Of a DNA stretch of 64,000 nt, positions 45,966-64,000 are shown one piece after another. Both the position numbers and the translations under genes were made by a program. Within the stretch, counting starts at the first letter, position 1. The number at the start of each line of letters is the position of its first letter. The notes beneath the pieces were generated by a model, which searched no databases, was not told where the DNA came from, and saw only the letters and a program-made list of their open reading frames with translations. Origin of the DNA: an uncultured Bacteroidota bacterium (lineage in GTDB: Bacteria; Bacteroidota; Bacteroidia; Flavobacteriales; Flavobacteriaceae); NCBI GenBank assembly GCA_902602415.1, contig CACKQW010000001.1, positions 86,342-150,341 of the forward strand, in the 5' to 3' direction.

Positions 45966-46769
45966 ATGAAAAGAACTTTTATATTATTTTTTTTAACCCT
46001 AAGCAGCTTTTCAATTACAGCTCAAGACTTTCAGGGAAAAGCATACTACAAGACAAAGACAACTATGGACTTTGGTTCATGGGGAGATAAGATGTCATCA
46101 GAGAGAAAAAAGATGATGAAAGAGAGAATGAGACCATATTTGGAGCCTACATTTATATTAACTTTTGACAAAGAAAAATCTATGTATAAAGAGCAGGAAA
46201 GGTTAGATGCTCCTGGATCTGGTGGTAGAAGTGGTTGGGGTAAAATGATGTCGGGAAATAGGGGCCCTATTTTTAAAAATTTAAAAACAAAAAAATTCAT
46301 ACAAGACTCAGAATTTATGGGTAAAAAATTTTTAATCACTGACTCTGTAAATAAAATTAATTGGGTTTTAGAAAAAGAACAAAAAATGATAGGTAATTAT
46401 CTTAGTTTTAAAGCAACAGCAGAAATTCCAAAGAAAAAAACCATCTCCAGTGAATGGAGAAAGTTAGAAAAAAGTGATTCGACTGATATACAAAATGAGT
46501 ATACAAAGGTCAATGCCTGGTATTCTCCTCAGATCCCAATTGCAAACGGTCCTGCTGAGTTTGATGGATTACCGGGACTTATTTTGGAGTTAAACTACGA
46601 AAAAACAGTTATTTTATGTACAAAAGTTGTAATGAACCCAGAAAAGAAAATTCAAATAAATGAACCCAGGAAGGGAGAGGTAGTTTCTAAAAATGAATAT
46701 GATAAAATTGTAGAAGTTAAGGTTAAGGAGATGAGAGATATGTATAGAGGACCAAGGTCTAAAAGATAA
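45966..46769 (+). CDS. GLPGLI family protein
   Basis: 267 residues. Signal peptide (about 1-19, ending ITAQ), then a periplasmic or surface domain with the family motif in GPAEFDGLPGLILELNYE (about 195-212). The C terminus is basic. The family is almost confined to Bacteroidota, has no known function, and is often encoded beside TonB-receptor-like genes. Here the receptor gene is third in the operon, with an alkane monooxygenase gene between. A glycine- and serine-rich stretch (DAPGSGGRSGWG) is specific to this copy. Confidence 0.88.
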   Translation: MKRTFILFFLTLSSFSITAQDFQGKAYYKTKTTMDFGSWGDKMSSERKKMMKERMRPYLEPTFILTFDKEKSMYKEQERLDAPGSGGRSGWGKMMSGNRGPIFKNLKTKKFIQDSEFMGKKFLITDSVNKINWVLEKEQKMIGNYLSFKATAEIPKKKTISSEWRKLEKSDSTDIQNEYTKVNAWYSPQIPIANGPAEFDGLPGLILELNYEKTVILCTKVVMNPEKKIQINEPRKGEVVSKNEYDKIVEVKVKEMRDMYRGPRSKR

Positions 46770-46784
46770 ATTTTAAATTTACAC

Positions 46785-47864
46785 ATGCAAAAAAATTTCC
46801 ATCTGAGTGATTTAAAATATTTAATGGCATATAGTATCCCAATAAGTGCTATAATAGGTTTAACTATTGAAGGATTTTTTTATTTTTTAACCCCTATTTA
46901 TATTTTCATCGGGATCCCTGCGGTTGAGTCTATTTTAACCTTTTTAAAATTAGATGATAAATTTAAAGGCCGTTCATCTAAAGAAATTCACTGGATTTTT
47001 AACTGGATGCTTTACATAAATATTTTACTAGTTTATGGAGTATTAATTTACGCTCTAATTAAATCTGTTTCGATTAATATTATTTCATTAGATTTTCTTG
47101 GAATTGTATTTACTGTCGGATTGGTAATAGTTTCCAACGGCATTAATGTTGCACATGAGCTATGTCACAGAACAAATTCATTTGAAAGATACCTTGGAAA
47201 ATTTTTACTAATTCCATCATTATACATGCATTTTTATCTAGAACATAACTTTGGCCATCACTTGAATGTAGCAACTCCTAATGATCCTGTAACAGCAAAG
47301 TACAACGAACCTTTGTATTCCTTTTGGATAAGTGCTGTTTTTGGAGAGTTAAATGGTGCAATGAAAATCCAGAGAAAGAGATTACAAAATAAAAAACTAT
47401 CATTTTTTTCTCTACAAAATGATATGCTTTGGTATGGTATAATTCAATTTATCTATTTAGTATGTGGTTTTATAATATTTGGATTTAAGGGCTTAATTTT
47501 AATTTTTGTAGCAGCTATCATTTCAATTTTAATGTTTGAGTCAGTAAATTATATTGAACATTATGGTTTGTTGAGAAAAAAACTAAAATCTGGAAGATAT
47601 GAAAGGGTTCAAGAGAAACACTCATGGAATTCAAATCATATATTAGGAAGAATTGTTTTATATGAGCTTACAAGACATAGCGATCATCACAGATCGTCAA
47701 CAATTGAATATCAAAATTTAAAATCAATTGACGATTCCCCGCAGTTACCTTTTGGATATCCAACAAGTATTTTAATTTCATTCATCCCCATTTTATGGTT
47801 TAAAATCATGAATCCAAGAGTTCCTAAAGAAATGATTTCAATTGCTTCAAAAAACTATTCATGA
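46785..47864 (+). CDS. alkB: AlkB-type alkane 1-monooxygenase (integral membrane di-iron)
   Basis: 359 residues with about six membrane helices. All the histidine boxes of the AlkB group are present: HELCH (124-128), EHNFGHH (153-159), NYIEHYG (255-261) and LTRHSDHH (295-302). HSWNSNH and PQLPFGYP are also family-specific and separate it from ordinary fatty-acid desaturases. The first box reads HELCHR where many AlkB have HELGHK. It would hydroxylate the terminal carbon of alkanes or similar alkyl chains, using rubredoxin; no rubredoxin or rubredoxin reductase gene is nearby. It lies 15 bases after the GLPGLI gene and overlaps the receptor gene (ATGA). Confidence 0.9.
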   Translation: MQKNFHLSDLKYLMAYSIPISAIIGLTIEGFFYFLTPIYIFIGIPAVESILTFLKLDDKFKGRSSKEIHWIFNWMLYINILLVYGVLIYALIKSVSINIISLDFLGIVFTVGLVIVSNGINVAHELCHRTNSFERYLGKFLLIPSLYMHFYLEHNFGHHLNVATPNDPVTAKYNEPLYSFWISAVFGELNGAMKIQRKRLQNKKLSFFSLQNDMLWYGIIQFIYLVCGFIIFGFKGLILIFVAAIISILMFESVNYIEHYGLLRKKLKSGRYERVQEKHSWNSNHILGRIVLYELTRHSDHHRSSTIEYQNLKSIDDSPQLPFGYPTSILISFIPILWFKIMNPRVPKEMISIASKNYS

Positions 47865-50602
47865 AAAAAATTATTATTATTTTTTGTTTTTTATCTGGCA
47901 TAAGCTCATTTTCTCAAATAAAAATTTCTGGTAAGGTTACAGATAGTATTGGTAATCCTTTAGAATTAGCCAATATAATTTTAATTGATGCTGAAACAGA
48001 CATATTAGAGTCTTTTGGAACATCCAACGAAAAAGGAGAATATAAAATACAATTAAGAAAAAATAAAAGTTATAATTTCCAAGTAAGTTATATAGGAATG
48101 GCTACATTTTCTCAATTAATTCTTTCCAAAGAACAAGATATTGTGAAGAACGTTAAATTAAATGAAAACAATATTCTCGATACTGTTCAATTAACTTATG
48201 AAATGCCTGTTGTGATCAGTGGAGACACTTTAATTTATGATGCTGACTCTTTTAAGACTGGAACAGAAAGAAAATTGGAGGATGTCTTGAAAAATTTGCC
48301 TGGAGTTGAAATTAATGATGACGGAGAAATTGAAGTTGAGGGAAAAGCTGTTTCAAAAGTAATGGTTGAGGGGAAAGATTTTTTTGATGGAGATTCAAAA
48401 ATTGCCTCAAAAAACATCCCTTCAAGTGCTGTTGATAAAGTTCAGATATTAAAGAATTATTCAGAAATCTCTCAGTTAAGCTCAGTACAAAATAATCAAG
48501 ATAATATTGCAATCAATATCAAACTTAAAAAAGGTAAAGATAAATTTTGGTTTGGAGATATTTTGGCAGGAGTTGGAGAATCCTCAGTTTCTAATCTACA
48601 CATATTTCAGCCAAAATTATTTTATTACAGTCCTAAGTATAGTATTAATATTATTGGAGACCTAAATAATATTGGTGAGCAAGCATTTACTAGAAGAGAT
48701 TATTGGAATTTTTCTGGGGGTTTTAATAAACCAAGCTCAAAAAGTGGCACTAACATCTCTCTTGGTAATAATAATTTAAGTTTTTTACAGCTTCAAAATA
48801 ATAGAGCAAAAGATATAAATACAGAGTTCGCTGCTATTAATACCAGTTTTTCACCCAATAAAAAAATTGATTTTTCGTCCTTCATCATACTAACAAATAG
48901 CGAAATAGAGATTCAACAAAACAATACTACACAGTATGTTGGTGGTTCTCAAGAAATTCCCGACGAATTTGTTCAGCAAAATACTGTTCAAAATAGTGAG
49001 TTAGGGATAGGTAAATTGACGATGAAATATACTCCAGATGTAAATAACCAACTGGATTATGAAATTTTAGGAAGGTTAACTAATGAAACCCAAGATCAAA
49101 ATTATTTATCTTCTGTAATTGGAGAAATTGATCAGTTGGATGATTCTGAATCTTTTAGTATAAGTCAAAATTTCAATTACTATTTTACCTTAAATGAAAA
49201 AAATATATTTGCATTTGAAGCACAACATTTATTAAGAAACGAAGATCCTTTTTACAATGCCAATTTAGAAAACAATGAAAATTTTGAACCGACTGCTACT
49301 GGCTTGGGCCTTGATAATTCATTTTTAAATTTTAATATTAATCAAAACAGAAAAGTTAAGTCAAATCAATTGGATGCCAAAATTGATTATTGGAATATAT
49401 TAAACTCAAAAAGTGATTTGAATATCACTATTGGTAATATATACAGTAAACAAGACTTCAGATCAGAAATATTTCAATCTCTTATAGATAATAACGATCA
49501 ATTTTATCCCACTCCTTTAATAAATAACGGACATGACTCTAATGATATCAATTATATTTTTGATGATTTATATTTAGGTTTAAGATACAGACTTAAAGCT
49601 GGGAAATTTACAATATCTCCAGGGTTTTCAGCGCATTCTTACAATTCAAAAAATGATCAATATGATGTTATAAACTCAGATTTAGTTTCTGATATTTCAT
49701 ACAAAAAGTCGTTTTTCAAATTTCTTCCGAATTTCAATTTAATAATTCAACTTAAGGATAGTGAAAACATTAGGCTTAATTATTCAATGAGAACTCAGTT
49801 TACTGATATAACAAAGATTGCGAGGGGTCTAGTTTTAAATAATTACAATTCGATTTTTATTGGGAATCAATACCTTCAAAATGCTGTATCACATAATGTT
49901 AATCTTAATTATTATTCTTTTAATTTATTTAATTATACAAATATATACGCAGGATTAAATTATAATAAGTCTATTGATCAAATCAGAAATTTAACGAGTT
50001 TTGAAAGTGTAATAGCTACAAGCTCTCCCTTTAATTCTCCTTTTGCTGATGAAAATTTTTCTATGTATGGGAGATATCAGAGATCAATGGGTAAACTAAG
50101 GGCAACAATCGGCTCTAATTTTAATTTTTCAAAGTTCAATCAGTTCATTCAGAGTGACTCAAATCCTAATTTAAGCGAAACCTTTTCTCAAGGTTATAAT
50201 GTTTCCCTAAGAACCCTATTTAGAAATGCACCTAATTTTGAAACAGGATTAAAGTATTCAGTTAGTGAAACGAACATTGGATCTTTAAAGACTAAATATT
50301 TTACTGAAACACCATTCATCGAAATTGATGCACTAGTTTTAAAAAAAATTACTTTTAGAACCAATTTTTCCTATTCTAAATTTAGTGATGAAGATGATAT
50401 AATTAACGAATACAAGTTTTTTGATGCCTCTGCATCATACAGAGCTAACGAAGAGAGTAAATTTGAATTTGAAATAAAAGCAAATAACTTACTAAACACA
50501 AAATCTCAGAGTCAATCAAGTACTTCAAATATTTTTGTTAATACAACTGAATACTTCGTCCAGCCAAGATTTATTACATTTAGACTTATATATAGTCTTT
50601 AA
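47861..50602 (+). CDS. TonB-dependent receptor-like outer membrane protein (CarboxypepD_reg + barrel)
   Basis: 913 residues. Signal peptide (about 1-19), carboxypeptidase-like regulatory domain (about 21-105, KISGKVTDSIGNPLELANI), plug-like region (about 115-225, with VLKNLPGVEINDDGEIEVEG and ILKNYSEISQLSSVQ), and a long beta-barrel to the C terminus (ITFRLIYSL). No TonB box is evident. It belongs to the Bacteroidota group of receptor-like barrels that neighbour GLPGLI genes. Coupling to alkB by an ATGA overlap suggests a shared substrate or a membrane-linked role (inference). Confidence 0.9.
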   Translation: MKKIIIIFCFLSGISSFSQIKISGKVTDSIGNPLELANIILIDAETDILESFGTSNEKGEYKIQLRKNKSYNFQVSYIGMATFSQLILSKEQDIVKNVKLNENNILDTVQLTYEMPVVISGDTLIYDADSFKTGTERKLEDVLKNLPGVEINDDGEIEVEGKAVSKVMVEGKDFFDGDSKIASKNIPSSAVDKVQILKNYSEISQLSSVQNNQDNIAINIKLKKGKDKFWFGDILAGVGESSVSNLHIFQPKLFYYSPKYSINIIGDLNNIGEQAFTRRDYWNFSGGFNKPSSKSGTNISLGNNNLSFLQLQNNRAKDINTEFAAINTSFSPNKKIDFSSFIILTNSEIEIQQNNTTQYVGGSQEIPDEFVQQNTVQNSELGIGKLTMKYTPDVNNQLDYEILGRLTNETQDQNYLSSVIGEIDQLDDSESFSISQNFNYYFTLNEKNIFAFEAQHLLRNEDPFYNANLENNENFEPTATGLGLDNSFLNFNINQNRKVKSNQLDAKIDYWNILNSKSDLNITIGNIYSKQDFRSEIFQSLIDNNDQFYPTPLINNGHDSNDINYIFDDLYLGLRYRLKAGKFTISPGFSAHSYNSKNDQYDVINSDLVSDISYKKSFFKFLPNFNLIIQLKDSENIRLNYSMRTQFTDITKIARGLVLNNYNSIFIGNQYLQNAVSHNVNLNYYSFNLFNYTNIYAGLNYNKSIDQIRNLTSFESVIATSSPFNSPFADENFSMYGRYQRSMGKLRATIGSNFNFSKFNQFIQSDSNPNLSETFSQGYNVSLRTLFRNAPNFETGLKYSVSETNIGSLKTKYFTETPFIEIDALVLKKITFRTNFSYSKFSDEDDIINEYKFFDASASYRANEESKFEFEIKANNLLNTKSQSQSSTSNIFVNTTEYFVQPRFITFRLIYSL

Positions 50603-50685
50603 CTTTTGTTCCCTTTTTTTTTTTTTAATTAGATAAATAGTTTTTCTTTACAGGTTGAATTATTTAAAATTAACTTTTTGAAGGA

Positions 50686-52368
50686 TTGAAAGAAAAATTA
50701 AATAAATACAGCAAAATCATCACTCAAGATGACTCTCAGCCCGCAGCTCAAGCAATGCTGTATGCGATTGGATTTAAAGATGAAGATTTTAATAAACCAA
50801 TTATTGGTATTGCTAGTACTGGATATGAAGGCAACCCATGTAATATGCACCTTAATAAATTAGCTCTAGATGTAAAAAAAGGTGTACAGGAAAAGGATTA
50901 CGTTGGCTTAATTTTCAATACAATTGGAGTTAGTGATGGAATATCAATGGGGACTCCCGGCATGAGATATTCCCTACCCTCTAGAGATATTATTGCAGAC
51001 TCAGTTGAAACTGTAGTTGAAGCTATGTCCTACGATGGTTTGATCACTGTCGTTGGATGCGATAAAAATATGCCTGGTGCTCTCATGGGTATGATTAGAC
51101 TGAATAGACCTTCTATTCTTTTGTATGGGGGAACTATTGATTCAGGTTGTCACAATGATAAAAAACTTGATATTGTTTCTGCGTTTGAGGCATGGGGTGG
51201 TAAGGTTTCCGGTAAAATAAATGAAATTGAATACAAACAAATTATTAAAAAATCCTGTCCTGGATCTGGTGCATGTGGTGGTATGTATACAGCCAATACA
51301 ATGGCCTCTGCAATTGAGGCATTAGGGATGTCACTTCCATTTTCATCTTCCATTCCTGCAAATAATTCGAATAGAGAGAGTTTATCAAAAGAGGTCGGAA
51401 AATCCATTGAAAAATTAATTGTAAATGATATCAAGCCGCTTGATATCATTTCAAAAAAATCCTTAGAAAATGCAATTTCATTAGTTATTGCTTTGGGTGG
51501 ATCTACTAACGCTGTATTACATTTTTTAGCAATTGCAAGATCTGCAAACATTGAATTCTCTTTAGATGATTTTCAAAAGATTAGTGATAAGACTCCCTAT
51601 ATTGCTAATTTAAAACCAAGTGGCAAATATTTAATGGAGGATTTACATGAAATTGGTGGTATTCCTTTTATTTTAAAATACATGCTAGATGCTGGGTTTC
51701 TGCATGGCGACTGCCTCACTGTTACTGGAAAAACTTTAGAGGAAAATTTAAGATCTGTGAAGTCATTATCATTTGATCAAGATATTATAATGCCTTTGGA
51801 AAATCCCATTAAAAAATCGGGTCATATTCAGATTTTATATGGAAATTTGGCTGTTGAGGGAAGTGTTGCTAAAATTTCAGGAAAAGAAGGTTTACAATTT
51901 CAGGGTAAAGCCAAAGTTTTTGATTCTGAGCTCGAAGCTAATCTTGGAATTAAAAAAGGATTGGTAAAAAAAGGAAATGTAGTGGTAATAAGGTTTGTAG
52001 GTCCAAAAGGTGGACCAGGAATGCCTGAGATGTTAAAACCAACTGCTGCGATAATGGGTGCTGGTTTAGGGAAAGATGTAGCGTTAATTACAGATGGAAG
52101 ATTTTCGGGGGGAACTCATGGCTTTGTTGTTGGCCATATTACACCTGAGGCGCAAGTTGGGGGAAATATTGCTTTTGTTGAGGACGGTGATATTATTTCA
52201 ATTGATGCCAGAAAAAATACTATAAATTTACATGTTACTGAAGATGAGATAAATAAACGAAAACTAAATTGGAAAAAGCCTAAATTAAAAGTTAACATGG
52301 GTTCCTTATATAAGTATGCCAGGTTTGTATCCTCGGCATCAAAGGGATGTGTAACGGATGAATTTTAA
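50686..52368 (+). CDS. ilvD: Dihydroxy-acid dehydratase
   Basis: 560 residues from a TTG start; an in-frame stop at 50671 and no ATG between leave no better choice, and AAGGA lies directly before it. [33 protein letters not shown] and [17 protein letters not shown] are the IlvD/Edd signatures, with the cysteines that hold the Fe-S cluster. It makes the 2-oxo acids of the Ile and Val pathways. First gene of ilvDBNCA. No leader peptide or attenuator was found in the 83 bases upstream, which contain a long T run. Confidence 0.96.
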
Positions 52369-52379
52369 TAAATTATATA

Positions 52380-54068
52380 ATGCCAAAAATTTCAGGAAGC
52401 GAAGCAGTAATTAAATGCCTAATAAATGAAGGTGTTGAGATAATATATGGGTACCCTGGAGGTGCAATTATGCCTGTTTATGATGAGTTATTTAAGTATC
52501 AAGATAAAATTCACCATGTTTTGACAAGACATGAGCAAGGTGCGACTCACGCTGCTCAGGGTTTTGCAAGAATCTCCGGTAAAGTTGGTGTTGCAATTGC
52601 CACATCTGGACCTGGAGCTACAAACCTTGTTACTGGCTTAGCAGATGCACAAATTGATTCAACTCCTATGATATGCATCACTGGCCAAGTAAGCTCAAAG
52701 CTTTTGGGAAGTGATGCTTTTCAAGAAACCGATATTATTGGTATTTCAACACCAATAACAAAGTGGAATTATCAAATAACAAAGGCCTCTGAGATTCCTG
52801 AAATTTTTGCAAAAGCTTTTTATATTGCTAAAAGTGGAAGACCAGGCCCCGTCTTAATTGATATTACTAAAGATGCTCAGTTTGAACTTTTTGATTTTTC
52901 ATATAATAAAATCAACGGCATAAGAAGTTATAATCCTACTCCTGAAATTGACAAGAACAAAATAAAAGAAGCAGCAAAACTAATCAACAAAGCAAAAAAA
53001 CCTCTTATTGTATGGGGGCAGGGTGTTATTCTTGGAAATGCTGAAAAAGAGTTAATAGATTTAGTTGAGAAAACTGGGATTCCTGCAGCATGGACCATAT
53101 TGGGAGCATCTGCTATTCCTACAGAACATCCTTTAAATGTTGGCATGCTTGGCATGCATGGTAATTATGCTCCAAATGTTAAAACAAATGAGTGTGATAT
53201 ACTTATCGCTATAGGAATGAGATTTGATGATCGTGTAACTGGTGATGTAACTAGGTATGCTAAACAGGCTCAAATTATTCATTTTGAAATTGATCCAGCG
53301 GAGGTAAATAAAAATATTGAAGTTGATATAGCTGTTTTAGGAAATGCCAAAGATACATTAGGAGAAATAATAAAGTATGTTGAAACTAACTCTCATAAAA
53401 ATTGGCTTAAAGAATTTTCAGATTTATATAAAGTTGAATTTAATAAAGTAATTGATGCTGAAATAAATCCTACTAAGAAGGGGTTAACCATGGGTGAGGT
53501 AATTAAACACATTAACAAACATACAAAAGGAGATGCTGCAATTGTTACAGATGTAGGGCAACATCAAATGGTAGCTTGCAGGTATGCAAATTTTAGAAAC
53601 TCTAAAAGTAATATAACATCTGGTGGTTTGGGAACTATGGGTTTTGCATTACCAGCTGCTTTAGGTGCAAAAATGGCTGCCCCGCACAGAGAAGTGGTCG
53701 CTGTAATTGGTGATGGAGGTTATCAAATGACCATTCAAGAACTTGGAACTATTTTTCAAACAAAGGCTGCGGTTAAGATCGTAGTGTTAAACAATGATTT
53801 TTTAGGAATGGTACGACAATGGCAACAACTATTCTTTGAAAAGAGATATGCATCCACTGAAATGGTAAATCCTGATTTTGTTAAAATAGCAGAGGGATAT
53901 TACATAAAAGCAAAAAGAGTAAATAAAAGAGATGATCTTGCGCCAGCTATCGAAGAAATGATAAAATCAAAAGAGCCTTATTTTTTAGAAGTTGTTGTGG
54001 AAAAGGAGGCTAATGTTTTCCCGATGATTCCAACTGGATCATCAGTTTCTGATATTAGATTAAGTTAA
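52380..54068 (+). CDS. ilvB: Acetolactate synthase, large (catalytic) subunit
   Basis: 562 residues, ThDP enzyme. IYGYPGGAIMPVYDEL, the catalytic Glu in TRHEQGATHAAQGFAR, SGPGATNLVTGLADA, and VIGDGGYQMTIQEL with the Mg/ThDP motif. NNDFLGMVRQWQQLFFEKRY is typical of anabolic acetolactate synthase. It forms acetolactate and acetohydroxybutyrate. The small subunit follows four bases later. Confidence 0.97.
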   Translation: MPKISGSEAVIKCLINEGVEIIYGYPGGAIMPVYDELFKYQDKIHHVLTRHEQGATHAAQGFARISGKVGVAIATSGPGATNLVTGLADAQIDSTPMICITGQVSSKLLGSDAFQETDIIGISTPITKWNYQITKASEIPEIFAKAFYIAKSGRPGPVLIDITKDAQFELFDFSYNKINGIRSYNPTPEIDKNKIKEAAKLINKAKKPLIVWGQGVILGNAEKELIDLVEKTGIPAAWTILGASAIPTEHPLNVGMLGMHGNYAPNVKTNECDILIAIGMRFDDRVTGDVTRYAKQAQIIHFEIDPAEVNKNIEVDIAVLGNAKDTLGEIIKYVETNSHKNWLKEFSDLYKVEFNKVIDAEINPTKKGLTMGEVIKHINKHTKGDAAIVTDVGQHQMVACRYANFRNSKSNITSGGLGTMGFALPAALGAKMAAPHREVVAVIGDGGYQMTIQELGTIFQTKAAVKIVVLNNDFLGMVRQWQQLFFEKRYASTEMVNPDFVKIAEGYYIKAKRVNKRDDLAPAIEEMIKSKEPYFLEVVVEKEANVFPMIPTGSSVSDIRLS

Positions 54069-54072
54069 TTAA

Positions 54073-54606
54073 ATGAGTGAAAAAAAAATTAAATATACGG
54101 TTTCAATATACACTGAAAATAGTGTAGGTCTTTTGAACAGGATTTCAGCTATATTTCAAAAAAGACATATAAATATAGAGAGCTTTAATTCATCAATTAC
54201 TGAAATTGAGGATGTCCATAGATGGACAATTTTAGTCCATACATCTGAAACTTTGATTAAAAAAATTGTTGGTCAGATAAATAAGCAAATTGAAGTCATC
54301 AAGTCATATTACCACACCGATGAAGAAACAATTTATCAGGAGTCGTGTTTATTTAAGATTAAATCCTCTTTACTTTTTGATGATCGAAAAATTCAAAATA
54401 TTATTAAAGAAAGTAATGCTATCATAGTTACTGTGAACCCTGAGTTTTTTGTTATTGAAAAATCTGGAAGAACATATGAGTTAGATGAATTATATGAAAA
54501 ACTCAGTAAATACGGGATACTACAATATGTAAGGTCAGCACGAATTGCTGTCACCAAAGCACCTCTTTTTATCTCTGATATTTTGAAAAAATTTAAAAAA
54601 AAATAA
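54073..54606 (+). CDS. ilvN: Acetolactate synthase, small (regulatory) subunit
   Basis: 177 residues. The N-terminal ACT domain (about 6-80) has [21 protein letters not shown] and [10 protein letters not shown], the valine-binding elements, and the C-terminal ALS_ss domain has [19 protein letters not shown]. It activates IlvB and transmits valine feedback. One base separates it from ilvC. Confidence 0.95.
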
Positions 54607-54607
54607 A

Positions 54608-56077
54608 ATGAAAAATTATTTTAATTCTCTTAGTGAAACTGAAAAAAAAGAGCAGTTATCCAAGTGTAGATTTATGGATCTTAATGAGTTTAGTCAAGAG
54701 AATAAATCTTTAATCGGTAAAAAAATTGTCATAATTGGGTGTGGTGCACAAGGACTAAATCAGGGCTTAAATATGCGTGATTCTGGCTTGAATATTTCCT
54801 ATGTACTGAGAGAAAATGCTATCAAAATGAAACGACAATCCTTTGTTAATGTATCGGAAAACAACTTCGAATTTGGACTAATTCAAGATTTAGTTCCAGA
54901 TGCTGATATGGTTATTAATTTAACTCCTGATAAGAATCATTCTGATGTAATAAATAGTATTGTTCCATTAATGAAAAAAGGATCAATTCTTTCGTATTCA
55001 CATGGTTTTAATGTTGTAGAAGAGGGTATGATAATAAGAGATGATATTACTGTAATCATGGTTGCTCCTAAGTGTCCAGGAACTGAGGTTAGAGAAGAAT
55101 TTAAAAGAGGTTTTGGTGTTCCAACTCTAATTGCCGTTCATTCCTCAAACGATCCTAATGGAAATGGCCTTGAGTTTGCCAAAGCTTATGCTTTCTCACT
55201 TGGTTCTCATAAAGCTGGTGTTTTGGAGTCATCATTTGTTGCTGAAGTCAAAAGTGATTTGATGGGTGAACAGACGATACTATGTGGAGTTTTACAATCG
55301 GCTTCAATTTTTTTATTTAATAAAATGTGTGATGCGCAAATAGATAAAAATTATTCATCAAAATTAATTCAAAATGGATGGGAAGTAATTACTGAAGCTT
55401 TAAAACATGGTGGAATTACAAAAATGATGAATCAGTTAAGTGATCAATCAAAAATAAATACATTTAATTTAGCCTCTAAGTTAAAAGTTAAAATGAAGCC
55501 ACTTTTTGAGAAGCATATGCAGGAAATTATGTCTGGAAAATTTTCAAGTGAGATGATGGATGATTGGAAAAATAATGATTATAAGTTATTAAAATGGAGA
55601 GAGGAAACTGGAAACACCAAATTTGAAAAAACAATATCATCAGAAAGAAAAATTGAAAACAATGAATATTTTGAAAAAGGTATTGCAATGATTGCATTTG
55701 TAAAATCTGGGGTAGAGTTAGCATTTGAAACGATGATAAATGCTGGTATAATTGATGAATCAGCATATTATGAATCACTTCATGAATTACCACTTATAGC
55801 AAATTTAATCTCTAGAAAAAAACTATATGAGATGAATAGAATCATCTCTGATACAGCAGAATATGGTTGTTATTTATTTTCTAATGAGGCAAAAAAACTA
55901 TTTGAATCTGAGTTTAAACATCTAAATTTTTATTTAAACGGGTCTGAAAAAGATAAAGAAAGTCAAATTGACATAGAATTAGTTAAAAAAATTAACTTTG
56001 AAATAATAAATCATCCGGTTGAAAAAATTGGTTTGCAATTAAGAAAATCAATGACTGAGATGAAAAATTTATTTTAG
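54608..56077 (+). CDS. ilvC: Ketol-acid reductoisomerase (class II, long form)
   Basis: 489 residues, the duplicated long form as in Escherichia coli. [20 protein letters not shown] is the nucleotide fold; [20 protein letters not shown] is the family motif. The two knotted C-terminal domains contain [12 protein letters not shown] and [15 protein letters not shown]. It reduces and isomerises acetolactate with NADPH. Its last base overlaps the ilvA GTG. Confidence 0.97.
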
Positions 56078-57078
56078 TGCAAAAGTTAATTGATTTAGCT
56101 CATATTAGAGGTACTACAAGAAAAATTAGAGGAATTGTAAAAAAAACACCTTTACAAGAGAGTCTTAATTATTCACAAAAATATAATTCAAAAATTTTTT
56201 TTAAGAGGGAAGATCTTCAGGATGTTAAATCATTTAAGATAAGAGGTGCATACACGAAAATTCTCAGTGTTGAAAAAACGATAGCTCAAAATGGACTTGT
56301 TTGTGCAAGTGCTGGAAATCATGCTCAAGGCTTTGCTGTTAGTTGCTCCCTTTTAGATTACAATGGAACAGTATTTATGCCACACTCAACCCCAAGTTTA
56401 AAGGTTAGTTTGGTAAAAAAATTCGGAGGTAAGAATATCAAGATCAAGCTTGTAGGAGAAAACTTTTCAAAAGCTTACAAAGCTGCGATGGATTATTGTA
56501 TTAGTAATAGAAAAACATTTATTCATCCATTTGATGATATTAAAGTTATTGAAGGCCAGGCTACCTTGTTTTTAGAGATTATTGAACAGATAAAAAATCC
56601 AATTGATTATATTTTTATTCCAATTGGAGGAGGTGGACTTATTTCAGGTGCGATAAATATATTCAAACAACTTAGTCCAAAAACAAAGATAATCGGTATT
56701 GAGCCTGCTGGCGCTCCTTCCATGAAGGAATCTATCATCAAAAATAAAATAATAAAACTGCATAAAATTGATAATTTCGTGGATGGTGCTGCAGTACACA
56801 AAATTGGCATTATTCCATTTGAATTTTGTAAAGATTACTTAGATGACTTATTGGTAATTGATGAAGGTGAAATTTGTCAATCAATTTTAGATTTGAAATC
56901 AATTGAGAAAATTACCGCTGAGCCTGCAGGGGCGATGTCTTCAGCTGCTCTGAGATTGTACAAAGAAAGAATAGTTAAAAAAAATGTAGTTTGTATAATT
57001 TGTGGCGGAAATAATGATGATTCAAGAATGAAAGAAATTTATAAAAGAGCGATTAATTGGAAAAATTCATCAAAATAA
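56077..57078 (+). CDS. ilvA: Threonine deaminase without C-terminal regulatory domain
   Basis: 333 residues from a GTG overlapping the ilvC stop. FKREDLQDVKSFKIRGAY holds the PLP lysine, CASAGNHAQGFA and IPIGGGGLISG bind substrate and phosphate, and FVDGAAVHKIG is typical of the flavobacterial IlvA group. Those homologues usually run to about 415-420 residues with an ACT-like domain; this one stops just where that domain would begin (after IYKRAINWKNSSK). The sequence after the stop shows no continuation in another frame. It sits in the Ile/Val operon, so it is biosynthetic, but allosteric control by isoleucine is probably reduced or lost (inference). Confidence 0.92.
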   Translation: MQKLIDLAHIRGTTRKIRGIVKKTPLQESLNYSQKYNSKIFFKREDLQDVKSFKIRGAYTKILSVEKTIAQNGLVCASAGNHAQGFAVSCSLLDYNGTVFMPHSTPSLKVSLVKKFGGKNIKIKLVGENFSKAYKAAMDYCISNRKTFIHPFDDIKVIEGQATLFLEIIEQIKNPIDYIFIPIGGGGLISGAINIFKQLSPKTKIIGIEPAGAPSMKESIIKNKIIKLHKIDNFVDGAAVHKIGIIPFEFCKDYLDDLLVIDEGEICQSILDLKSIEKITAEPAGAMSSAALRLYKERIVKKNVVCIICGGNNDDSRMKEIYKRAINWKNSSK

Positions 57079-57216
57079 ATTTTGAAGCTAATGCAGTAAT
57101 TTTAAGGTTTGATGTAATTAACGAAAAATGTTTTAAAAAAACTTTTCTTTTTTTACATAGAATTGTTTCAGTATATTGATATGCTTTTTTGGAATAAAAA
57201 TTGATAAGGAATAAGT

Positions 57217-58809
57217 ATGTATTTTAATTTTGAAAAAATACCTGATCAATACAAGATCAAAAATGAAATAGTTCAAAATCAGTTTTTGGTTAATGGAAAG
57301 CTGGTAACTTGGAATGGGGATTTGTCTCCTGTTTATTCCACCATTTCTTCAAATAAAAAATATAGCCCAACTAAATTGGGTGAAATACCAAGCTTAGGAA
57401 AAAAAGAGGCTATGTTAGCATTAGATTCCGCATGTAATGCATTTGACAATGGAAAAGGAATTTGGCCAACCATGAAGGTTTTAGACAGAATTAAAGCTAT
57501 GGAAAACTTTGTAGCCGAAATGAAAACTAAAAGAGATATCATTGTTAAGCTTTTAATGTGGGAAATTGGCAAAAATTTTAATGATTCAAAAAAAGAATTT
57601 GATAGAACAGTTGACTATATATATGACACGATTGAGGCATATAAACAAATTGATAGAGATTCAGCTAAATTCCAAAAAAATAGTGGTATCAATGCTCACA
57701 TCAGAAGAGGACCCTTGGGAGTGGTTCTATGTTTGGGTCCCTATAACTATCCTTTAAATGAAACTTTCTGTTTGCTAATACCAGCTCTTATTATGGGAAA
57801 TACGGTAATTTTCAAGCCTGCAAAACATGGGGTTTTACTAATTACTCCTTTATTGGAAGCCTTTAAAAAGCATTTCCCGCCTGGAGTTGTAAATATTCTT
57901 TTTGGTAGAGGAAGAGCTTTAGCAACTCCTATCATGGAAACAGGTAAAGTAAATGTTTTAGCTTTAATTGGACACAGCTCTTCTGCCAACGCACTTCAGG
58001 AATCACATCCCAAAAAAAACAGATTACGATTAGTTCTTGGTTTGGAGGCAAAGAACCCAGCAATAATACTTCCCGATGCTGATTTAGATTTAGCAATAAA
58101 GGAATGTATTAATGGATCTCTTTCATACAATGGGCAAAGATGTACAGCCCTTAAAATAATTTATGTTCATGAAAAAATAAGAGATAATTTTATTAAAAAA
58201 TTTTCAAAAGAAGTTGATGATTTGAAGTATGGTAACCCCTGGGAGCCTGATGTTATGCTTACACCTCTTCCCGAACCAAACAAACCAAAATATATAAACT
58301 CACTTGTTCAAGATGCTTTAAAAAAGGGTGCTAAAGTTATGAATAAAAAAGGAGGGTTAATGTGTGAAAATTATATTTACCCATCTGTTTTATTTCCTGT
58401 AACTAAAGATATGGAAGTATATAAAGATGAGCAATTTGGACCAGTAATTCCAATTATATCTTTTAAAAATATTAATGAACCATTAAATGATATGGCTGAA
58501 TCCAACTATGGACAGCAGGTAAGTTTGTTTGGTAAAGACACCAAAACATTAGGGCCACTAATTGATACTTTAGTTAATTTAGTTTGTAGAGTTAATATTA
58601 ATAGTTCTTGTCAAAGAGGTCCTGATATTTACCCTTTCACTGGAAGAAAAGACTCAGCTTTCAGCACCCTTAGTGTTCGTGATGCACTTAGATCTTTCTC
58701 AATTAGAACATTTGTTGCCTCTAAAGATAATGATGATAACAACAAAATAATCAAGGATTTATTAGGATCAAAAAAATCTAATTTTGTTTCAACTGATTAT
58801 ATTCTTTAG
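57217..58809 (+). CDS. GapN-like NADP-dependent glyceraldehyde-3-phosphate dehydrogenase
   Basis: 530 residues, aldehyde dehydrogenase superfamily. [24 protein letters not shown] binds the cofactor, [17 protein letters not shown] carries the general-base Glu, and [17 protein letters not shown] carries the catalytic Cys. [18 protein letters not shown] near the C terminus is characteristic of the non-phosphorylating GAPDH group. It would oxidise glyceraldehyde 3-phosphate straight to 3-phosphoglycerate and yield NADPH. It stands alone; an AAGGA lies six bases before the ATG. The exact substrate is inferred from family resemblance. Confidence 0.82.
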
Positions 58810-58839
58810 TCAATTTTTTATTTTCTCACAAATATTATA

Positions 58840-58847
58840 TACATTCG
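58840..58847 (+). promoter_or_regulatory. Putative -7 promoter box of the phe/tyr operon
   Basis: TACATTCG resembles TAnnTTTG with one C, as in the tig and mutS boxes. It ends four bases before the leader ATG at 58852, the same spacing as in the trp leader. Confidence 0.35.
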
Positions 58848-58851
58848 TGAC

Positions 58852-58917
58852 ATGACAAATTTGATTACACTAAGTTTTGGATTTTATTATTTCTTTTTCT
58901 ATTCTAAGAATAGGTAG
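58852..58917 (+). CDS. pheL: Phe/Tyr-rich leader peptide of the pheA operon
   Basis: A 21-codon frame from ATG to TAG. Codons 9-17 read FGFYYFFFY: five Phe and three Tyr in nine positions. It is followed by a terminator and then pheA, aminotransferase and tyrA genes. The mix of Phe and Tyr codons fits an operon that makes both amino acids. The stop codon's G is the first base of the antiterminator segment, so a ribosome at the stop would mask it. Confidence 0.85.
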   Translation: MTNLITLSFGFYYFFFYSKNR

Positions 58918-58980
58918 AGACTATAATATGTAATCATAATATTAATGAAATCTAGTCTCGAATTATTCGGGACTTTTTTT
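58917..58980 (+). terminator. phe/tyr attenuator: antiterminator and terminator
   Basis: The terminator is AGTCTCGAA (58954-58962), loop TTA, TTCGGGACT (58966-58974), with one T.G and T to 58980. The segment GAGACTA (58917-58923) is perfectly complementary to TAGTCTC (58953-58959), the first arm, so the two pairings exclude each other. An upstream hairpin CTATTC-TAA-GAATAG (58899-58913) overlaps the end of the leader frame. Stalling on the Phe/Tyr codons would leave GAGACTA free and prevent termination. Confidence 0.85.
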
Positions 58981-59811
58981 ATGAGTAAAAAAAATATAGG
59001 AATACAAGGAATACAAGGTTCATTTCACCATATTGTGGCGAATGAATATTATGGCAATAATATCGATATTGATGAATTCCAATCCTTTGAAATAATGGCA
59101 AGACATCTTGCGGAAGGAAAATCTGATGCATCAATAATGGCTATTGAAAATTCTATTGCAGGATCAATCATTCCTAATTACGCACTGATTGACGAATATA
59201 ATCTTTCTATTGTAGGGGAATATTATTTGAAAATTTCTCATCATTTGTTAGCCCTTGAAAACCAGTCCATTGATGATATTAAAGAAGTTCACTCACATCC
59301 AATGGCATTACTTCAGTGTAGAGATTTTTTTAAAAAACATTCAAAAATTAAATTAGTTGAGGATACAGATACGGCACTCTCGGCCAAAAAAATTCACATG
59401 AATAATGAAAAAGGTATAGCTGCAATTGCCAGTGCATTAGCATCTCATTTATATTCTTTAGATGTTTTAGCAGAAAATATTCAGACAATTGAAAATAATG
59501 AGACAAGATTTGTTGTTCTAGAAAGATCAACTCCAAATAGTAAATCTGTATTTGATAAAGCTTCAATAAAATTTGAGTTGGATCACAAAAGAGGGAGTTT
59601 GGCAACAATACTAAATGTTTTGAGCGATTGTAAAATGAATTTGACTAAAATTCAGTCAATGCCAAAAATTGAAACTCCGTGGAGATATTCTTTTTTTGTG
59701 GATATCACATTCCAATCTTCAGATGATTATTTTAAAGCAAAATCAATAATTGAAATTATGGCAAAAGATTTTAAAGTTTTAGGAGAATATAAAAACTCAA
59801 AAAATGATTGA
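58981..59811 (+). CDS. pheA: Prephenate dehydratase
   Basis: 276 residues from the ATG at 58981. An in-frame ATG at 58945 would encode the terminator hairpin and is rejected. IGIQGIQGSFHHIVANEYYG start, MAIENSIAGSIIPNYALI, HSHPMALLQCRDFF and NETRFVVLERS with the TRF catalytic region. An ACT domain (about 190-270) contains KRGSLATILNVLSD, so Phe feedback is likely. It has no chorismate mutase domain; that activity is fused to DAHP synthase downstream. First structural gene after the attenuator. Confidence 0.95.
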   Translation: MSKKNIGIQGIQGSFHHIVANEYYGNNIDIDEFQSFEIMARHLAEGKSDASIMAIENSIAGSIIPNYALIDEYNLSIVGEYYLKISHHLLALENQSIDDIKEVHSHPMALLQCRDFFKKHSKIKLVEDTDTALSAKKIHMNNEKGIAAIASALASHLYSLDVLAENIQTIENNETRFVVLERSTPNSKSVFDKASIKFELDHKRGSLATILNVLSDCKMNLTKIQSMPKIETPWRYSFFVDITFQSSDDYFKAKSIIEIMAKDFKVLGEYKNSKND

Positions 59812-60946
59812 TAATTCCAAAAGGTTAGAACATATTTCTGAGTACTATTTTTCCAAGAAGTTAAGAGAAGTAAAATCTTTAATTGACAAGGGTGAAGATA
59901 TAGTTAATTTAGGAATTGGAAGCCCAGATTTATTTCCACCTGAAAATTCAATTAATACGGTTATAAAAAGTTTGAATCAAAAAAATGCTCATAAGTATCA
60001 AGGCTATTCTGGTATTTACCAATTACGCGAAAAAATTTCTTCTTTTTATAAAAAATATTATGAAGTTGATCTTCATCCTGATCAAAATGTATTACCACTT
60101 ATTGGAAGCAAGGAGGGGATATTTCACATATCAATGTCTTTTTTAAATGATGATGATTCAGTATTAATACCAAATCCAGGTTATCCAACATATTCTTCTA
60201 TCACTAAATTGATTGGAAATAAAATAATTAATTATGATCTGACTGAAAGTAATAATTGGGAACCAGATTTCAATAACTTAAAGAAGTTAGATTTAAGTAA
60301 AGTAAAAATAATGTGGGTAAATTATCCAAATATGCCTACCGGAAGAACAGCTTCCGTAAATTTATTTAAAAAAATTGTTCAATTTGGAAAAGAAAATAAC
60401 ATATTAATAGTAAATGATAACCCATATAGTTTTATTTTAAATGATAACCCCTTAAGTATTATGAGTATTTCTGGCGCAATGGAAAATTGTATTGAGCTAA
60501 ACTCAATGAGTAAAATATACAATATGGCTGGTTGGAGAGTAGGATTTGTTGTGGGAAACCCCACTTTTATTAGCAATATTTTGAAGGTTAAAAGTAATAT
60601 GGACTCTGGAATGTTCTACCCTGTTCAGATGGGTGCTGCTAATGCACTATCTCAAAATAATGATTGGTTTGAGAAACTAAATATAAAATATAAAGAAAGA
60701 CGTGAATTAGTTTGGGAGCTTGCATCAAAACTTGGTTGTACTTTTTCTAAAGATAATGTTGGGATGTTTATATGGGCAAAAATTAATAAATCAATTCCAT
60801 CAAAAGAATTTGTTGATAATCTACTGCACAAATCTGGAATTTTCGTTGCACCTGGAATAATTTTCGGAACAAATGGAGAAGGATATATTAGAATATCATT
60901 GTGTAATTCCACAGCAAATATTAAAAAGGCAATTTCTCGATTATGA
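59804..60946 (+). CDS. PLP-dependent aminotransferase, class I/II (aromatic amino acid pathway)
   Basis: 380 residues. NLGIGSPDLFPPE, QGYSGIYQLREKI, NPGYPTYSS, VNYPNMPTGRTA, and the PLP lysine in NSMSKIYNMAGWRVGFVVG. Its place between pheA and tyrA suggests it transaminates phenylpyruvate and hydroxyphenylpyruvate (or prephenate), but the sequence alone does not fix the substrate. It overlaps pheA by 8 bases and tyrA by four. Confidence 0.92.
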   Translation: MIDNSKRLEHISEYYFSKKLREVKSLIDKGEDIVNLGIGSPDLFPPENSINTVIKSLNQKNAHKYQGYSGIYQLREKISSFYKKYYEVDLHPDQNVLPLIGSKEGIFHISMSFLNDDDSVLIPNPGYPTYSSITKLIGNKIINYDLTESNNWEPDFNNLKKLDLSKVKIMWVNYPNMPTGRTASVNLFKKIVQFGKENNILIVNDNPYSFILNDNPLSIMSISGAMENCIELNSMSKIYNMAGWRVGFVVGNPTFISNILKVKSNMDSGMFYPVQMGAANALSQNNDWFEKLNIKYKERRELVWELASKLGCTFSKDNVGMFIWAKINKSIPSKEFVDNLLHKSGIFVAPGIIFGTNGEGYIRISLCNSTANIKKAISRL

Positions 60947-61797
60947 AAAATATATACATAGTTGGTGTAGGTCTTATTGGAGGTAGCTTTGCTCTAGAAT
61001 TGAAGAATATATTTAATGATTATAATATAATCGGTATTGATATTTCCACACAAAATTTAAAGATTGCAAAACAAAAAAATATAATTGATTCACACGCAGA
61101 AATAAATGATATTACCAATGCTTTCATGATAATCATTGCTGTACCTGTAAAATCGATAATTAAAATCTTACCAAAAATTTTAGAATTTATTTCTACTGAA
61201 ACCCTTGTTATAGATTTTGGTTCAACTAAGTTAAATATTTGTAAAAATCTTCAAACTCACAAGCGAAGATCTAATTTTCTTGCTGCTCATCCCATAGCGG
61301 GTAATGAATTCTCTGGTCCTGATGCTGCTGCAAAGGGCCTGTTTACAAATAAAACAATGATTATTTGTGAAAAAAATAAGACCAATAAGAAACTTGTTGA
61401 TTTGGCTATTAATATATTTAAAGAGATGAAGATGAATATTAGTTTTATGGATCCTGAATCTCATGATAAACATATCGCATATGTGTCTCATTTATCTCAT
61501 ATAAGTTCATTCATGTTGGGGAAAACTGTAATTGACGAAGAAAAAAATGAAAAGAATATTTTTGATATGGCTGGTAGTGGATTTGAATCTACCGTTAGGT
61601 TAGCAAAAAGTTCACCAAAAATGTGGACAGATATATTAGAAGACAACAAAATAAATATAAAAGAGGCACTTGACGATTATATTTATAATTTGAATAATAT
61701 TAGAGATTTAATAAATGATAATAAATTTGATGAATTAGAATTAGAGTTAAAAAAGATCAATTATATTAAGAATATACTAAATGGCATTAATCTATGA
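60943..61797 (+). CDS. tyrA: Prephenate dehydrogenase
   Basis: 284 residues. Dinucleotide fold IYIVGVGLIGGSFALEL, then AAHPIAGNEFSGPDAA with the catalytic His and HIAYVSHLSHISSFML. There is no C-terminal ACT domain, so any Tyr feedback must lie elsewhere. It converts prephenate to 4-hydroxyphenylpyruvate. ATGA overlaps on both sides. Confidence 0.94.
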   Translation: MKNIYIVGVGLIGGSFALELKNIFNDYNIIGIDISTQNLKIAKQKNIIDSHAEINDITNAFMIIIAVPVKSIIKILPKILEFISTETLVIDFGSTKLNICKNLQTHKRRSNFLAAHPIAGNEFSGPDAAAKGLFTNKTMIICEKNKTNKKLVDLAINIFKEMKMNISFMDPESHDKHIAYVSHLSHISSFMLGKTVIDEEKNEKNIFDMAGSGFESTVRLAKSSPKMWTDILEDNKINIKEALDDYIYNLNNIRDLINDNKFDELELELKKINYIKNILNGINL

Positions 61798-62876
61798 AGA
61801 ATAATAAAGACTTAAGAGCATGGCTTGATAATTTTAATTTATCACATCCGTTAGTTATTGCTGGACCATGCAGTGCAGAAACAGAAAATCAAGTTATTGA
61901 GATTGCAAATCAGCTAAAAGATAGTGATGCGACCGTTTACAGAGCTGGTATTTGGAAGCCAAGAACAAGACCTGGAAATTTTGAAGGAGTTGGTTCATTA
62001 GCATTGGATTGGCTCAAGAGAGTTAAGAATGAAACAAATATTTTAACTACAACAGAGGTTGCTAATGCTAATCACGTAGATTTGGCCTTAAAAAATGATG
62101 TTGATATTTTATGGATAGGAGCAAGGACTACAGTTAGCCCCTTTATTATTCAAGAAATTGCTGATGCCCTAAACGGTTCGGATAAAATAGTTTTGATAAA
62201 AAATCCTGTAAATCCTGATTTATCTCTGTGGCTTGGCGCAATAGAAAGGATTTATTCATCTAATATAAAAAATATTGGAGCAATTCATCGTGGATTTTCA
62301 ACCTATGAAAAAACTAAATATAGAAATAATCCTGAATGGCAAATTGCTATCGATCTACAAAGAAAATTACCTGATCTTCCACTGATTCTTGATCCATCAC
62401 ACATAGCAGGAAGAAGAGATTTAATTTTTGACTTATGTCAAACAGCACTGGACCTTAACTATGATGGGCTTATGATTGAAACACATAATGATCCTGATAA
62501 CGCATGGAGCGATGCCAAACAACAAATTACTCCTTCAGTCTTAAAAGAAATAACGAAAAAATTAGTTGTTAGAAGGAAGAGTAATGATAATGATGATTTT
62601 AAAACAAAGTTAGGAACTTTAAGAGCTCAAATTAATATGCACGATGAGCAATTAATTAACATTTTAGGAAATAGAATGAAGGTTGCTAAAAAAATAGGAT
62701 CTTTAAAAAAAGAAAATAATGTTGCTGTTCTTCAATCGGGAAGATGGAATGAAATTTTGGAAAGAATGATAAATGATGGAAAGAGTGAAGGGTTGAGTGA
62801 AGAGTTAATATTAAAGGTTTTCAAAGCAATTCATCAGGAATCAATTAACAACCAAAATCAAATTTTAAAAAAATAG
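61794..62876 (+). CDS. Bifunctional DAHP synthase / chorismate mutase
   Basis: 360 residues. Residues 1-255 are a type I-beta DAHP synthase: VIAGPCSAETENQV, YRAGIWKPRTRPGNFEGVG, IHRGFSTYEKTKYRN and LDPSHIAGRRDLI. Residues about 270-355 are an AroQ-type chorismate mutase: LRAQINMHDEQLINILGNRM, KVAKKIGSLKKEN, and the closing VFKAIHQESI. It catalyses the first shikimate step and the branch to prephenate, linking pathway entry to exit in one protein. This C-terminal fusion is usual in Bacteroidota. Confidence 0.95.
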   Translation: MKNNKDLRAWLDNFNLSHPLVIAGPCSAETENQVIEIANQLKDSDATVYRAGIWKPRTRPGNFEGVGSLALDWLKRVKNETNILTTTEVANANHVDLALKNDVDILWIGARTTVSPFIIQEIADALNGSDKIVLIKNPVNPDLSLWLGAIERIYSSNIKNIGAIHRGFSTYEKTKYRNNPEWQIAIDLQRKLPDLPLILDPSHIAGRRDLIFDLCQTALDLNYDGLMIETHNDPDNAWSDAKQQITPSVLKEITKKLVVRRKSNDNDDFKTKLGTLRAQINMHDEQLINILGNRMKVAKKIGSLKKENNVAVLQSGRWNEILERMINDGKSEGLSEELILKVFKAIHQESINNQNQILKK

Positions 62877-62883
62877 AGTTTCA

Positions 62884-63810
62884 TTGGAAGGTAAAGTTTA
62901 TAAATCTACTGGGTCTTGGTATTTAGTTAAAGCTGAAGATGATAACTTTTATGAATGTAAAATTAAGGGAAAATTAAGGTTAAGTGAATCTTCAAGTACA
63001 AATCCTGTTGTTGTAGGAGATATTGTAAATTTTAATTTACACAAAGAAGAAAATAGGGAAATTGGAATCATTGAAAAAATTAAGGACAGAAAAAATTACA
63101 TTTTAAGAAAGTCTGTTAACCTTTCAAAACAAACTCATATTCTGGCTTCAAATATTGATCTTTTATTATTAGTAATTACATTAAAAGACCCTATAACAAC
63201 CACAAGTTTTATTGACAGATTTTTGGTAGCAGCTCAAGCATATTCAATTAAAAGTATCTTAATATTCAACAAGTTTGATATTTATAAAAAAAATGAACTC
63301 AAAAGCCTAAACGAAATAATTAATATTTATAAAAAAATAGGTTATCAGTGCTTAACTTTTTCAACAAAGGATGAATTAAATTTAGAAATTTTAAAGCGAT
63401 CAATTCAAGGAAAAACTATTATGCTTGGAGGTCATTCAGGGGTTGGAAAAACATCTATAGTCAATTTGTTAAGCCCATCATTAAAACTTAGAGTTAGCAG
63501 TATTTCTCAACATTTTCAAGGAAAGCATACCACTACCTATGCTGAATTATTTGAATTAGACAGTGAAACTGAGCTAATTGATACCCCTGGTATTAAGGGT
63601 TTTGGATTAATCAATTATCATGATCACGAATTGGGAGACTACTTCCCTGAGTTTTTATCAAATAAAGGTGGTTGTAAGTTTAGTAATTGCATGCATTTAA
63701 ATGAACCAAACTGTAAAATTAAATATCTTATTGAAAAGGGAGATATTTCACAATCAAGATATAAAAGTTATTTGCAGATATTGGATTCTAATGATTTAAA
63801 ACATAGGTAA
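62884..63810 (+). CDS. rsgA: Ribosome small subunit-dependent GTPase A
   Basis: 308 residues from a TTG start. N-terminal OB fold (about 1-75), circularly permuted GTPase with NKFD (G4) before GGHSGVGKTSIVNLL (G1) and DTPGIKGFG (G3), and a C-terminal zinc knuckle in GGCKFSNCMHLNEPNCKIK. It checks 30S subunit maturation. It overlaps dtd by one base and sits seven bases after the DAHP synthase gene. Confidence 0.95.
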   Translation: MEGKVYKSTGSWYLVKAEDDNFYECKIKGKLRLSESSSTNPVVVGDIVNFNLHKEENREIGIIEKIKDRKNYILRKSVNLSKQTHILASNIDLLLLVITLKDPITTTSFIDRFLVAAQAYSIKSILIFNKFDIYKKNELKSLNEIINIYKKIGYQCLTFSTKDELNLEILKRSIQGKTIMLGGHSGVGKTSIVNLLSPSLKLRVSSISQHFQGKHTTTYAELFELDSETELIDTPGIKGFGLINYHDHELGDYFPEFLSNKGGCKFSNCMHLNEPNCKIKYLIEKGDISQSRYKSYLQILDSNDLKHR

Positions 63811-64000
63811 TGAAATTAGTGATTCAAAGAGTAACATGTTCAAATTTATATATTGATGGATCTCTTATTTCTCAAATTAAACAAGGGTTGGTGGTATTGA
63901 TAGGAATTTCTAAATCTGATTCTGAAAATGTAATTGATAAGCTGGTAAAAAAGTTACTAAACCTAAGGGTTTTTGAAGATGAAAATTCAAAAATGAATTA
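63810..64000 (+). CDS. dtd: D-aminoacyl-tRNA deacylase (3'-truncated)
   Basis: The frame from ATG 63810 runs to the window edge with 63 complete codons. KLVIQRVTCSNLYIDG, GLVVLIGISKSD and LLNLRVFEDENSKMN match the N-terminal half of Dtd, including the start of the motif that normally continues LS. The enzyme removes D-amino acids mischarged on tRNA. It overlaps the rsgA stop by one base. Confidence 0.92.
   Translation, partial: MKLVIQRVTCSNLYIDGSLISQIKQGLVVLIGISKSDSENVIDKLVKKLLNLRVFEDENSKMN

Follow-up and report, generated by a model that had tools for sequence, protein, structure and literature searches.

Within the window, by which we mean the whole 64,000-nucleotide stretch of DNA that was analysed, a row of four genes for aromatic amino acid synthesis starts at position 58981. 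It is preceded by a short leader region in locally AT-rich DNA, and upstream of this an aldehyde dehydrogenase gene (Pfam) ends at 58809. The features are as follows:

58841–58848, + strand: promoter-like −7 box TACATTCG of the Bacteroidota sigma-A type TAnnTTTG, from a motif count and the published consensus.
58852–58917, + strand: leader peptide ORF of 21 codons, MTNLITLSFGFYYFFFYSKNR followed by a stop codon, read directly; a Phe/Tyr-rich short ORF with a terminator occurs in 156 of 179 loci.
58876–58902, + strand: control codons FGFYYFFFY, codons 9–17 of the leader, from third-base choice over 156 loci and a modelled switch at codons 13–15.
58885–58904, + strand: possible segment 1, inside the Phe/Tyr codons, pairing with 58908–58928 in a fold of 58852–58981 (weak).
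58917–58923, + strand: segment 2, GAGACTA, the 5′ strand of the antiterminator.
58953–58962, + strand: segment 3, combining the antiterminator 3′ strand (58953–58959) and the terminator 5′ arm (58954–58962).
58966–58980, + strand: segment 4, the terminator 3′ arm (58966–58974) and a T run to 58980.
58981–59811, + strand: pheA, prephenate dehydratase (Pfam PDT, 1.1e-54), start by comparison.
59804–60946, + strand: class I/II aminotransferase (Pfam Aminotran_1_2), gene order conserved.
60943–61797, + strand: tyrA, prephenate dehydrogenase (Pfam PDH), gene order conserved.
61794–62876, + strand: DAHP synthase–chorismate mutase fusion (Pfam PF00793 and PF01817), gene order conserved.

The original prediction had described a Phe/Tyr-coded attenuator here, and its individual elements were recovered. 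The leader containing FGFYYFFFY is present, and its stop codon TAG (58915–58917) supplies the first base of segment 2. The hairpin said to touch the pheA start has a stem of nine pairs, one of them G–U, between 58954–58962 and 58966–58974, with the T run reaching 58980 and the ATG following at 58981. GAGACTA, claimed to be complementary to the terminator, pairs over all 7 nt with TAGTCTC at 58953–58959, of which 6 nt belong to the terminator 5′ arm and one base lies before it. Among the 16 terminator-like sites of positions 44001–64000 (both strands; 7.7 expected by shuffling), this terminator had the most pairs. The proposed operon was likewise borne out by Pfam, which assigned the expected domains to all four genes; their ends overlap, and an ACT domain in PheA scored below the Pfam cut-off.

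The prediction had also warned that gene calling would carry pheA upstream through the terminator, and the longest ATG ORF indeed begins at 58945. This upstream in-frame ATG is absent from four of the 17 same-genus loci (L007, L013, L014 and L015) and shifts between −36, −33 and −30 in the other 13; because of this absence and shifting, 58981 is the better start, as had been claimed. What is maintained before 58981 would thus be the hairpin rather than a coding sequence, and the element itself argues for a pheA start at the terminator's end in the window's genus. Among the best 80 named contigs, the nearest PheA relative is Bacteroidetes bacterium MED-G13 (91% identical), and another near relative, a Flavobacteriaceae bacterium, belongs to the same genus as the window. 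In two distant genomes PheA lies inside an ORF of ~670 codons with the Phe/Tyr leader still upstream (L198:10890–12905; L209, minus strand, first ORF, 675 codons).

We collected 192 loci of PheA relatives from 60 relatives (43 matched), 296 genomes of the phylum (258 matched, part of them read) and the best 80 named contigs; dropping four duplicates and nine near-identical loci left a counting set of 179. The detector looked for a short ORF with at least six Phe or Tyr residues in 10 codons within 300 nt of pheA, the ORF ending between 5 nt inside and 70 nt before a terminator. Leader and terminator together were found in 156 of the 179 distinct prephenate dehydratase loci; in dinucleotide shuffles, 20 for each locus, they occurred in 0 of 3,580. 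The 156 are not independent events, given that the loci share ancestry and one family supplies many of them. None of 518 other ORF starts (at least 200 codons, on the named contigs) matched the same detector. When all amino acid pairs were tried in it, Phe/Tyr was by far the best (156 loci), followed by Phe/Ser with 81, which shares Phe. Comparison within the genus, proposed earlier as a check, gave a Phe/Tyr-rich short frame and terminator before pheA in 17 of the 17 genomes where pheA was found (21 searched, the window's own included). In a second sample of 20 loci, mainly from families new to the sampling, the detector matched nine (up to 800 nt); L232 has 10 Phe/Tyr in 10 codons and no terminator reaching the threshold, and the other 10 are without the element. 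The element therefore occurs well beyond the family and, with nine of 20, is not universal in the class.

The detector missed 23 of the 179 loci. Eleven of these carry the element in a form that scores below threshold, has been moved away from pheA or stands before a rearranged operon, another 11 show none, and one (L073, of the same genus as two of the rearranged loci below) was left unsorted. Five (L027, L090, L095, L098 and L191) have a leader and hairpin by eye that fall below the thresholds, and the leader of L100 starts at −307, so that it barely falls outside the searched stretch. Two loci, L021 and L140 (Gelidibacter sp.), have an intact element 467–646 nt upstream with repeats between it and pheA. 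The repeats, with GTTCGAAGAACGAAATAAAATGAACTAGTTGAACTAATCCCGCC-type units, occupy L196:9103–9749 (110-nt spacing; the genome of L021) and L140:5456–6001. In L071, L074 and L078 a DAHP synthase gene precedes pheA, and it is this gene that the element (leader e.g. MLITAAIYFTFFYFYFRSQSRIGAVYCLAKN) heads. Pfam analysis of L193, a longer stretch of L074, placed DAHP synthase–chorismate mutase, 3-dehydroquinate synthase and EPSP synthase before pheA; the other two DAHP synthase-first loci read alike by eye, one with a 122-codon ORF in between. In these longer stretches (L193–L195, from another family) the attenuator heads the row DAHPS-aroB-aroA-pheA and is not directly before pheA. That the element moves to DAHP synthase when this gene leads is a strong sign that it is tied to the operon rather than to pheA itself. 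Nothing was seen in the stretch read near pheA in 11 loci: L033, L042 and L043, which belong to the same taxonomic order as the window, and L105–L112, which come from other classes of the phylum.

Some loci carry more than one unit. In L090 and L098 a second Phe/Tyr leader with its own hairpin lies farther upstream. In the genus g57, PheA was matched in 22 of 25 genomes, and reading the 22 loci (L233–L254) with terminator thresholds looser than those of the main detector gave two units in series in 17 and one unit in five. The two units are unlike each other, differing in leader ending and stem sequence. Eight units of four such loci show segment 2 partners of 5–8 nt, with no shuffle baseline. 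A pair of Phe/Tyr gates, one after the other, would be expected to make the response sharper or to reduce leak. A tandem leader-ORF arrangement is known from the Salmonella mgtCBR operon, as described in the available part of PMC3641672. As there, the long leader of g57 contains a pair of short ORFs together with stem-loops; according to the same part of that paper, however, mgtCBR is an Mg2+ transport and virulence operon and not an amino acid operon, whereas both g57 units carry Phe/Tyr codons.

Covariation of the stems, also proposed as a check, was analysed in 86 aligned sequences, and both stems covary. Of 96 sequences prepared, 10 were dropped by hand for length of list; L103, L104 and L136 were excluded. 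The ORF of L136 looks out of frame, and this locus was counted in the 156 and left out of the alignment, the spacing and the ribosome models. For the antiterminator, two-sided changes were found at all eight pairs with 84.1% of cells paired, compared with at most 47.2% on sliding by 1–3 columns; the two-sided changes numbered 82 cells against 33.8 in shuffles. For the terminator, all nine pairs covary and 95.8% of cells are paired, falling to at most 52.9% on sliding. Since the two stems have segment 3 in common, three strands change together. Counting ungapped duplexes only, the antiterminator was better than in shuffled linkers at p≤0.05 in 121 of the 156 loci and missed this level in 35.

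In the 129 loci whose duplex score was 16 or more, the distance from the last Phe/Tyr codon to segment 2 was 11.8±2.5 nt (the window has 14 nt), compared with −14.7±10.6 nt from the stop codon in the same 129 loci. Because the former varies far less, it is the control codons and not the stop codon that are held in register with segment 2. A predicted 1:2 protector hairpin between the Phe/Tyr codons (the possible segment 1) and segment 2 is weak (median z −1.75; p≤0.05 in 72 of 156 loci; p=0.12 in the window).

The codon content points to what such a leader would sense. Over the 156 loci the 10-codon blocks hold 681 Phe and 455 Tyr codons. With TAA and TAG barred by the ORF definition, codons starting with TT or TA end in T or C in 1,136 cases and in A or G in 11, all 11 being TTA or TTG; in the two other frames of the same blocks A and G are common at the third-base position. 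The leaders are kept where the 5′ part of pheA reaches 61% GC, and 355 of the 1,136 Phe/Tyr codons end in C. The earlier claim that Phe and Tyr are coded jointly agrees with the presence of both in 155 of 156 leaders and with an operon whose enzymes would make both products. It could be argued that the switch senses Phe only, as the enterobacterial pheL does, and that the Tyr codons are neutral one-base relatives of Phe codons, a reading in keeping with the excess of Phe over Tyr codons. However, Tyr is found in all but one of the blocks and at least twice in 153, in front of an operon that serves Tyr as well, so that we consider sensing of Phe alone unlikely.

Joint sensing of Phe and Tyr may extend to Trp. 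Trp makes up 50 of the non-Phe/Tyr residues (6.7%) in 121 distinct 14-residue blocks, 49 of which have at least one; the base of comparison was PheA itself (0.4% Trp), and the printed enrichment ratio is overstated because PheA is poor in Trp, the usual proteome content being near 1.2%. Sensing of Trp would make sense because the synthesis of each of the three aromatic amino acids is expected to draw on the DAHP synthase of this operon. Asn and Thr are likewise over-represented in the 14 residues ending with the control codons (121 distinct blocks). By tblastn, tyrA was not found beside pheA in L201, L204, L208, L209 and L198; for L209 and L198, Pfam nevertheless detects a prephenate dehydrogenase domain in the vicinity of pheA. 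The L201 leader has several Tyr codons and the L208 block has one.

Upstream of the Phe/Tyr block, the motif TAnnTTnG was found in 137 of the 156 loci, compared with 25.0 expected from mononucleotide shuffling. According to the part of PMC9723704 available, TAnnTTTG at −12 to −5 is the box of the main sigma factor in Flavobacterium psychrophilum. From the box in the window, transcription is predicted to start at the leader ATG. Predicted 5′ UTRs span −2 to 40 nt in the 134 loci that have both a box and an in-frame ATG, and short ones are common in the relatives. Translation of the leader may begin without a 5′ UTR (leaderless), or at the TTG at 58861.

The sequence and its comparison among relatives establish the leader, its codon content, both stems, the spacing and the operon. 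Taken together, they suggest that the element before pheA is very probably a classical ribosome-mediated transcription attenuator gauging charged tRNA-Phe and tRNA-Tyr. In this scheme, whose translation of the leader, coupling, termination and direction of response we infer, RNA polymerase would start just ahead of the leader ORF with a ribosome following it. In a shortage of Phe or Tyr, this ribosome would wait at the Phe/Tyr codons and leave segment 2 free to pair with segment 3; the terminator could then not form, and pheA, the aminotransferase gene, tyrA and the DAHP synthase gene would be transcribed. When both amino acids are plentiful, the ribosome would reach the stop codon and cover segment 2, and the terminator would end transcription right before pheA.

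We modelled this switch by removing the RNA under the ribosome, with its edge placed 12 nt past the first A-site base. In the window the terminator had a predicted probability of 0.85–0.93 with the A site at every codon except 13–15 (Tyr, Phe and Phe), where it fell to 0.09, 0.07 and 0.31 and that of the antiterminator was 0.88, 0.91 and 0.65 respectively. In equilibrium folds with the full terminator, a stall at Phe/Tyr codons lowered the terminator probability by more than 0.3 in only 62 of 155 loci, which suggests that most loci would need a kinetic decision during transcription. When the RNA was ended at segment 3, the antiterminator reached at least 0.5 for some Phe/Tyr codon in all 155 loci, and with the ribosome at the stop codon it did so in none (edge at 12 or 15 nt) or in seven (edge at 9 nt); this test was added after the equilibrium test, and geometry fixes part of its outcome, as segment 2 lies under a ribosome that has reached the stop codon. 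The truncated RNA without a ribosome favoured the antiterminator in 111 of 155 loci, and untranslated leaders might in consequence read through.

In the window's genus the switch could instead act mainly on translation, the hairpin hiding the pheA start and antitermination freeing it, as the pheA ATG comes directly after the T run in each of the 17 same-genus loci. Outside the genus, however, the terminator ends 8–137 nt before the PheA match (138 detector hits; median 25 nt; at least 15 nt in 120), and where repeats are inserted the gap grows to several hundred nt with the element otherwise the same. The T runs themselves argue for termination of transcription, and we give the translational mode only a small chance of being the main one.

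We also considered whether an RNA sensor of another kind (a T-box, a riboswitch or a protein-bound RNA) could be at work with a fortuitous ORF, because any antiterminator/terminator pair could in principle answer another ligand. No Rfam family, T-box, Flavo-1 RNA and Phe_leader (RF01859) included, was found at E≤1 in positions 48000–64000 of the window, and nothing reached the gathering score in 35 related loci. What is conserved is instead which codons the leader holds and how far they lie from segment 2, making another sensor highly improbable. The weak same-strand matches overlapping the element in the 35 loci numbered 11: five to Phe_leader, two to Thr_leader and the rest to unrelated small RNAs. 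The five Phe_leader matches (one in each of five loci) are full-length and sub-threshold, the best with 39.3 bits (E 0.0022; L088) against a gathering score of 55 bits, and membership of RF01859 was rejected, there being no match in the window. A plasmid collection gave no match.

Finally, AT-rich DNA in which TTT and TAT codons arise easily and a dehydrogenase gene ending nearby would be compatible with a short ORF that merely results from the T-richness of the promoter and with a hairpin that is only the terminator of the upstream gene, yet shuffles never reproduce leader and terminator together, the aldehyde dehydrogenase was found upstream in only 7 of 100 loci of at least 5 kb, and the covariation of an antiterminator strand that a plain terminator does not need, together with the GC-rich homologues and their C-ending codons, makes this so unlikely as to be almost negligible.

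The attenuator at pheA may have a counterpart in the same genome. In front of trpE (28092, Pfam) a leader, MIKRITNKWWWMHEIPIS, was found by eye at 27908–27964. CGTGATG at 27960–27966 overlaps the leader stop codon and is complementary to CATCACG at 28002–28008, and a terminator at 27992–28018 is followed by T. The fold with segment 2 has a z of −3.63 and the terminator alone a z of −7.55. The genome thus seems to rely on such a switch for Trp as well. By eye, positions 50590–50790 in front of ilvD (Pfam) showed neither a leader peptide nor a terminator, in contrast to both aromatic operons.

A wider picture is compatible with these results. One leader peptide would gauge the whole aromatic pool, with Phe and Tyr in nearly every case and Trp in a good number of lineages, would be old enough to be shared across much of the class and by part of the phylum outside it, would track the operon's head gene (pheA, or DAHP synthase in DAHPS-aroB-aroA-pheA) and would be doubled in one genus in which both unlike attenuators must be passed; we put the chance that all of these parts hold together at about even. 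The Bacteroidota would gain a well-defined classical attenuator lacking an Rfam match at the gathering score; its relatives are numerous enough for building a model and for testing transcription–translation coupling in a phylum whose promoters and translation starts, according to the available part of PMC9723704, differ from those of most other bacteria. The tandem form offers a direct test bed for two amino acid attenuators in series.

Comparison with the well-known attenuators shows what is shared and what is different. The enterobacterial pheA attenuator (RF01859) has a leader rich in Phe codons, a terminator and an antiterminator. The present element precedes the same gene with the same three parts, whereas Tyr accompanies Phe in nearly every leader and the operon includes tyrA and DAHP synthase. 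Enterobacterial attenuators also respond to several amino acids, the thr operon to Thr and Ile and the ilv operons to Ile, Val and Leu. As in those, one leader peptide would gauge more than one amino acid, although the amino acids and the operon differ. Closer to the window, the part of PMC9723704 available describes a conserved structured 5′ element before pheA in F. psychrophilum in 2021, kept in other genera of the Flavobacteriaceae and lacking an Rfam hit, and proposes leader-peptide attenuation for amino acid operons of this species generally. That element precedes the same gene in the same bacterial family; this part of the paper gives neither the sequence nor the codon content of a pheA leader, and describes no antiterminator, no coding of Tyr or Trp and no occurrence of the pheA element outside the family. 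Our literature search, which covered few subscription papers, recognised no further description of a Phe/Tyr leader in Bacteroidota; Lopatovskaya et al. (2010), known to us as a citation in the part of PMC4833913 available, may bear on it. The existence of the element in Flavobacteriaceae is thus already in print in outline, judging from the available text of PMC9723704, and what the present analysis adds is the dual Phe/Tyr (often Trp) coding, the detail of the mechanism, the range beyond the family, the following of the first gene of the operon and the serial attenuators of one genus.
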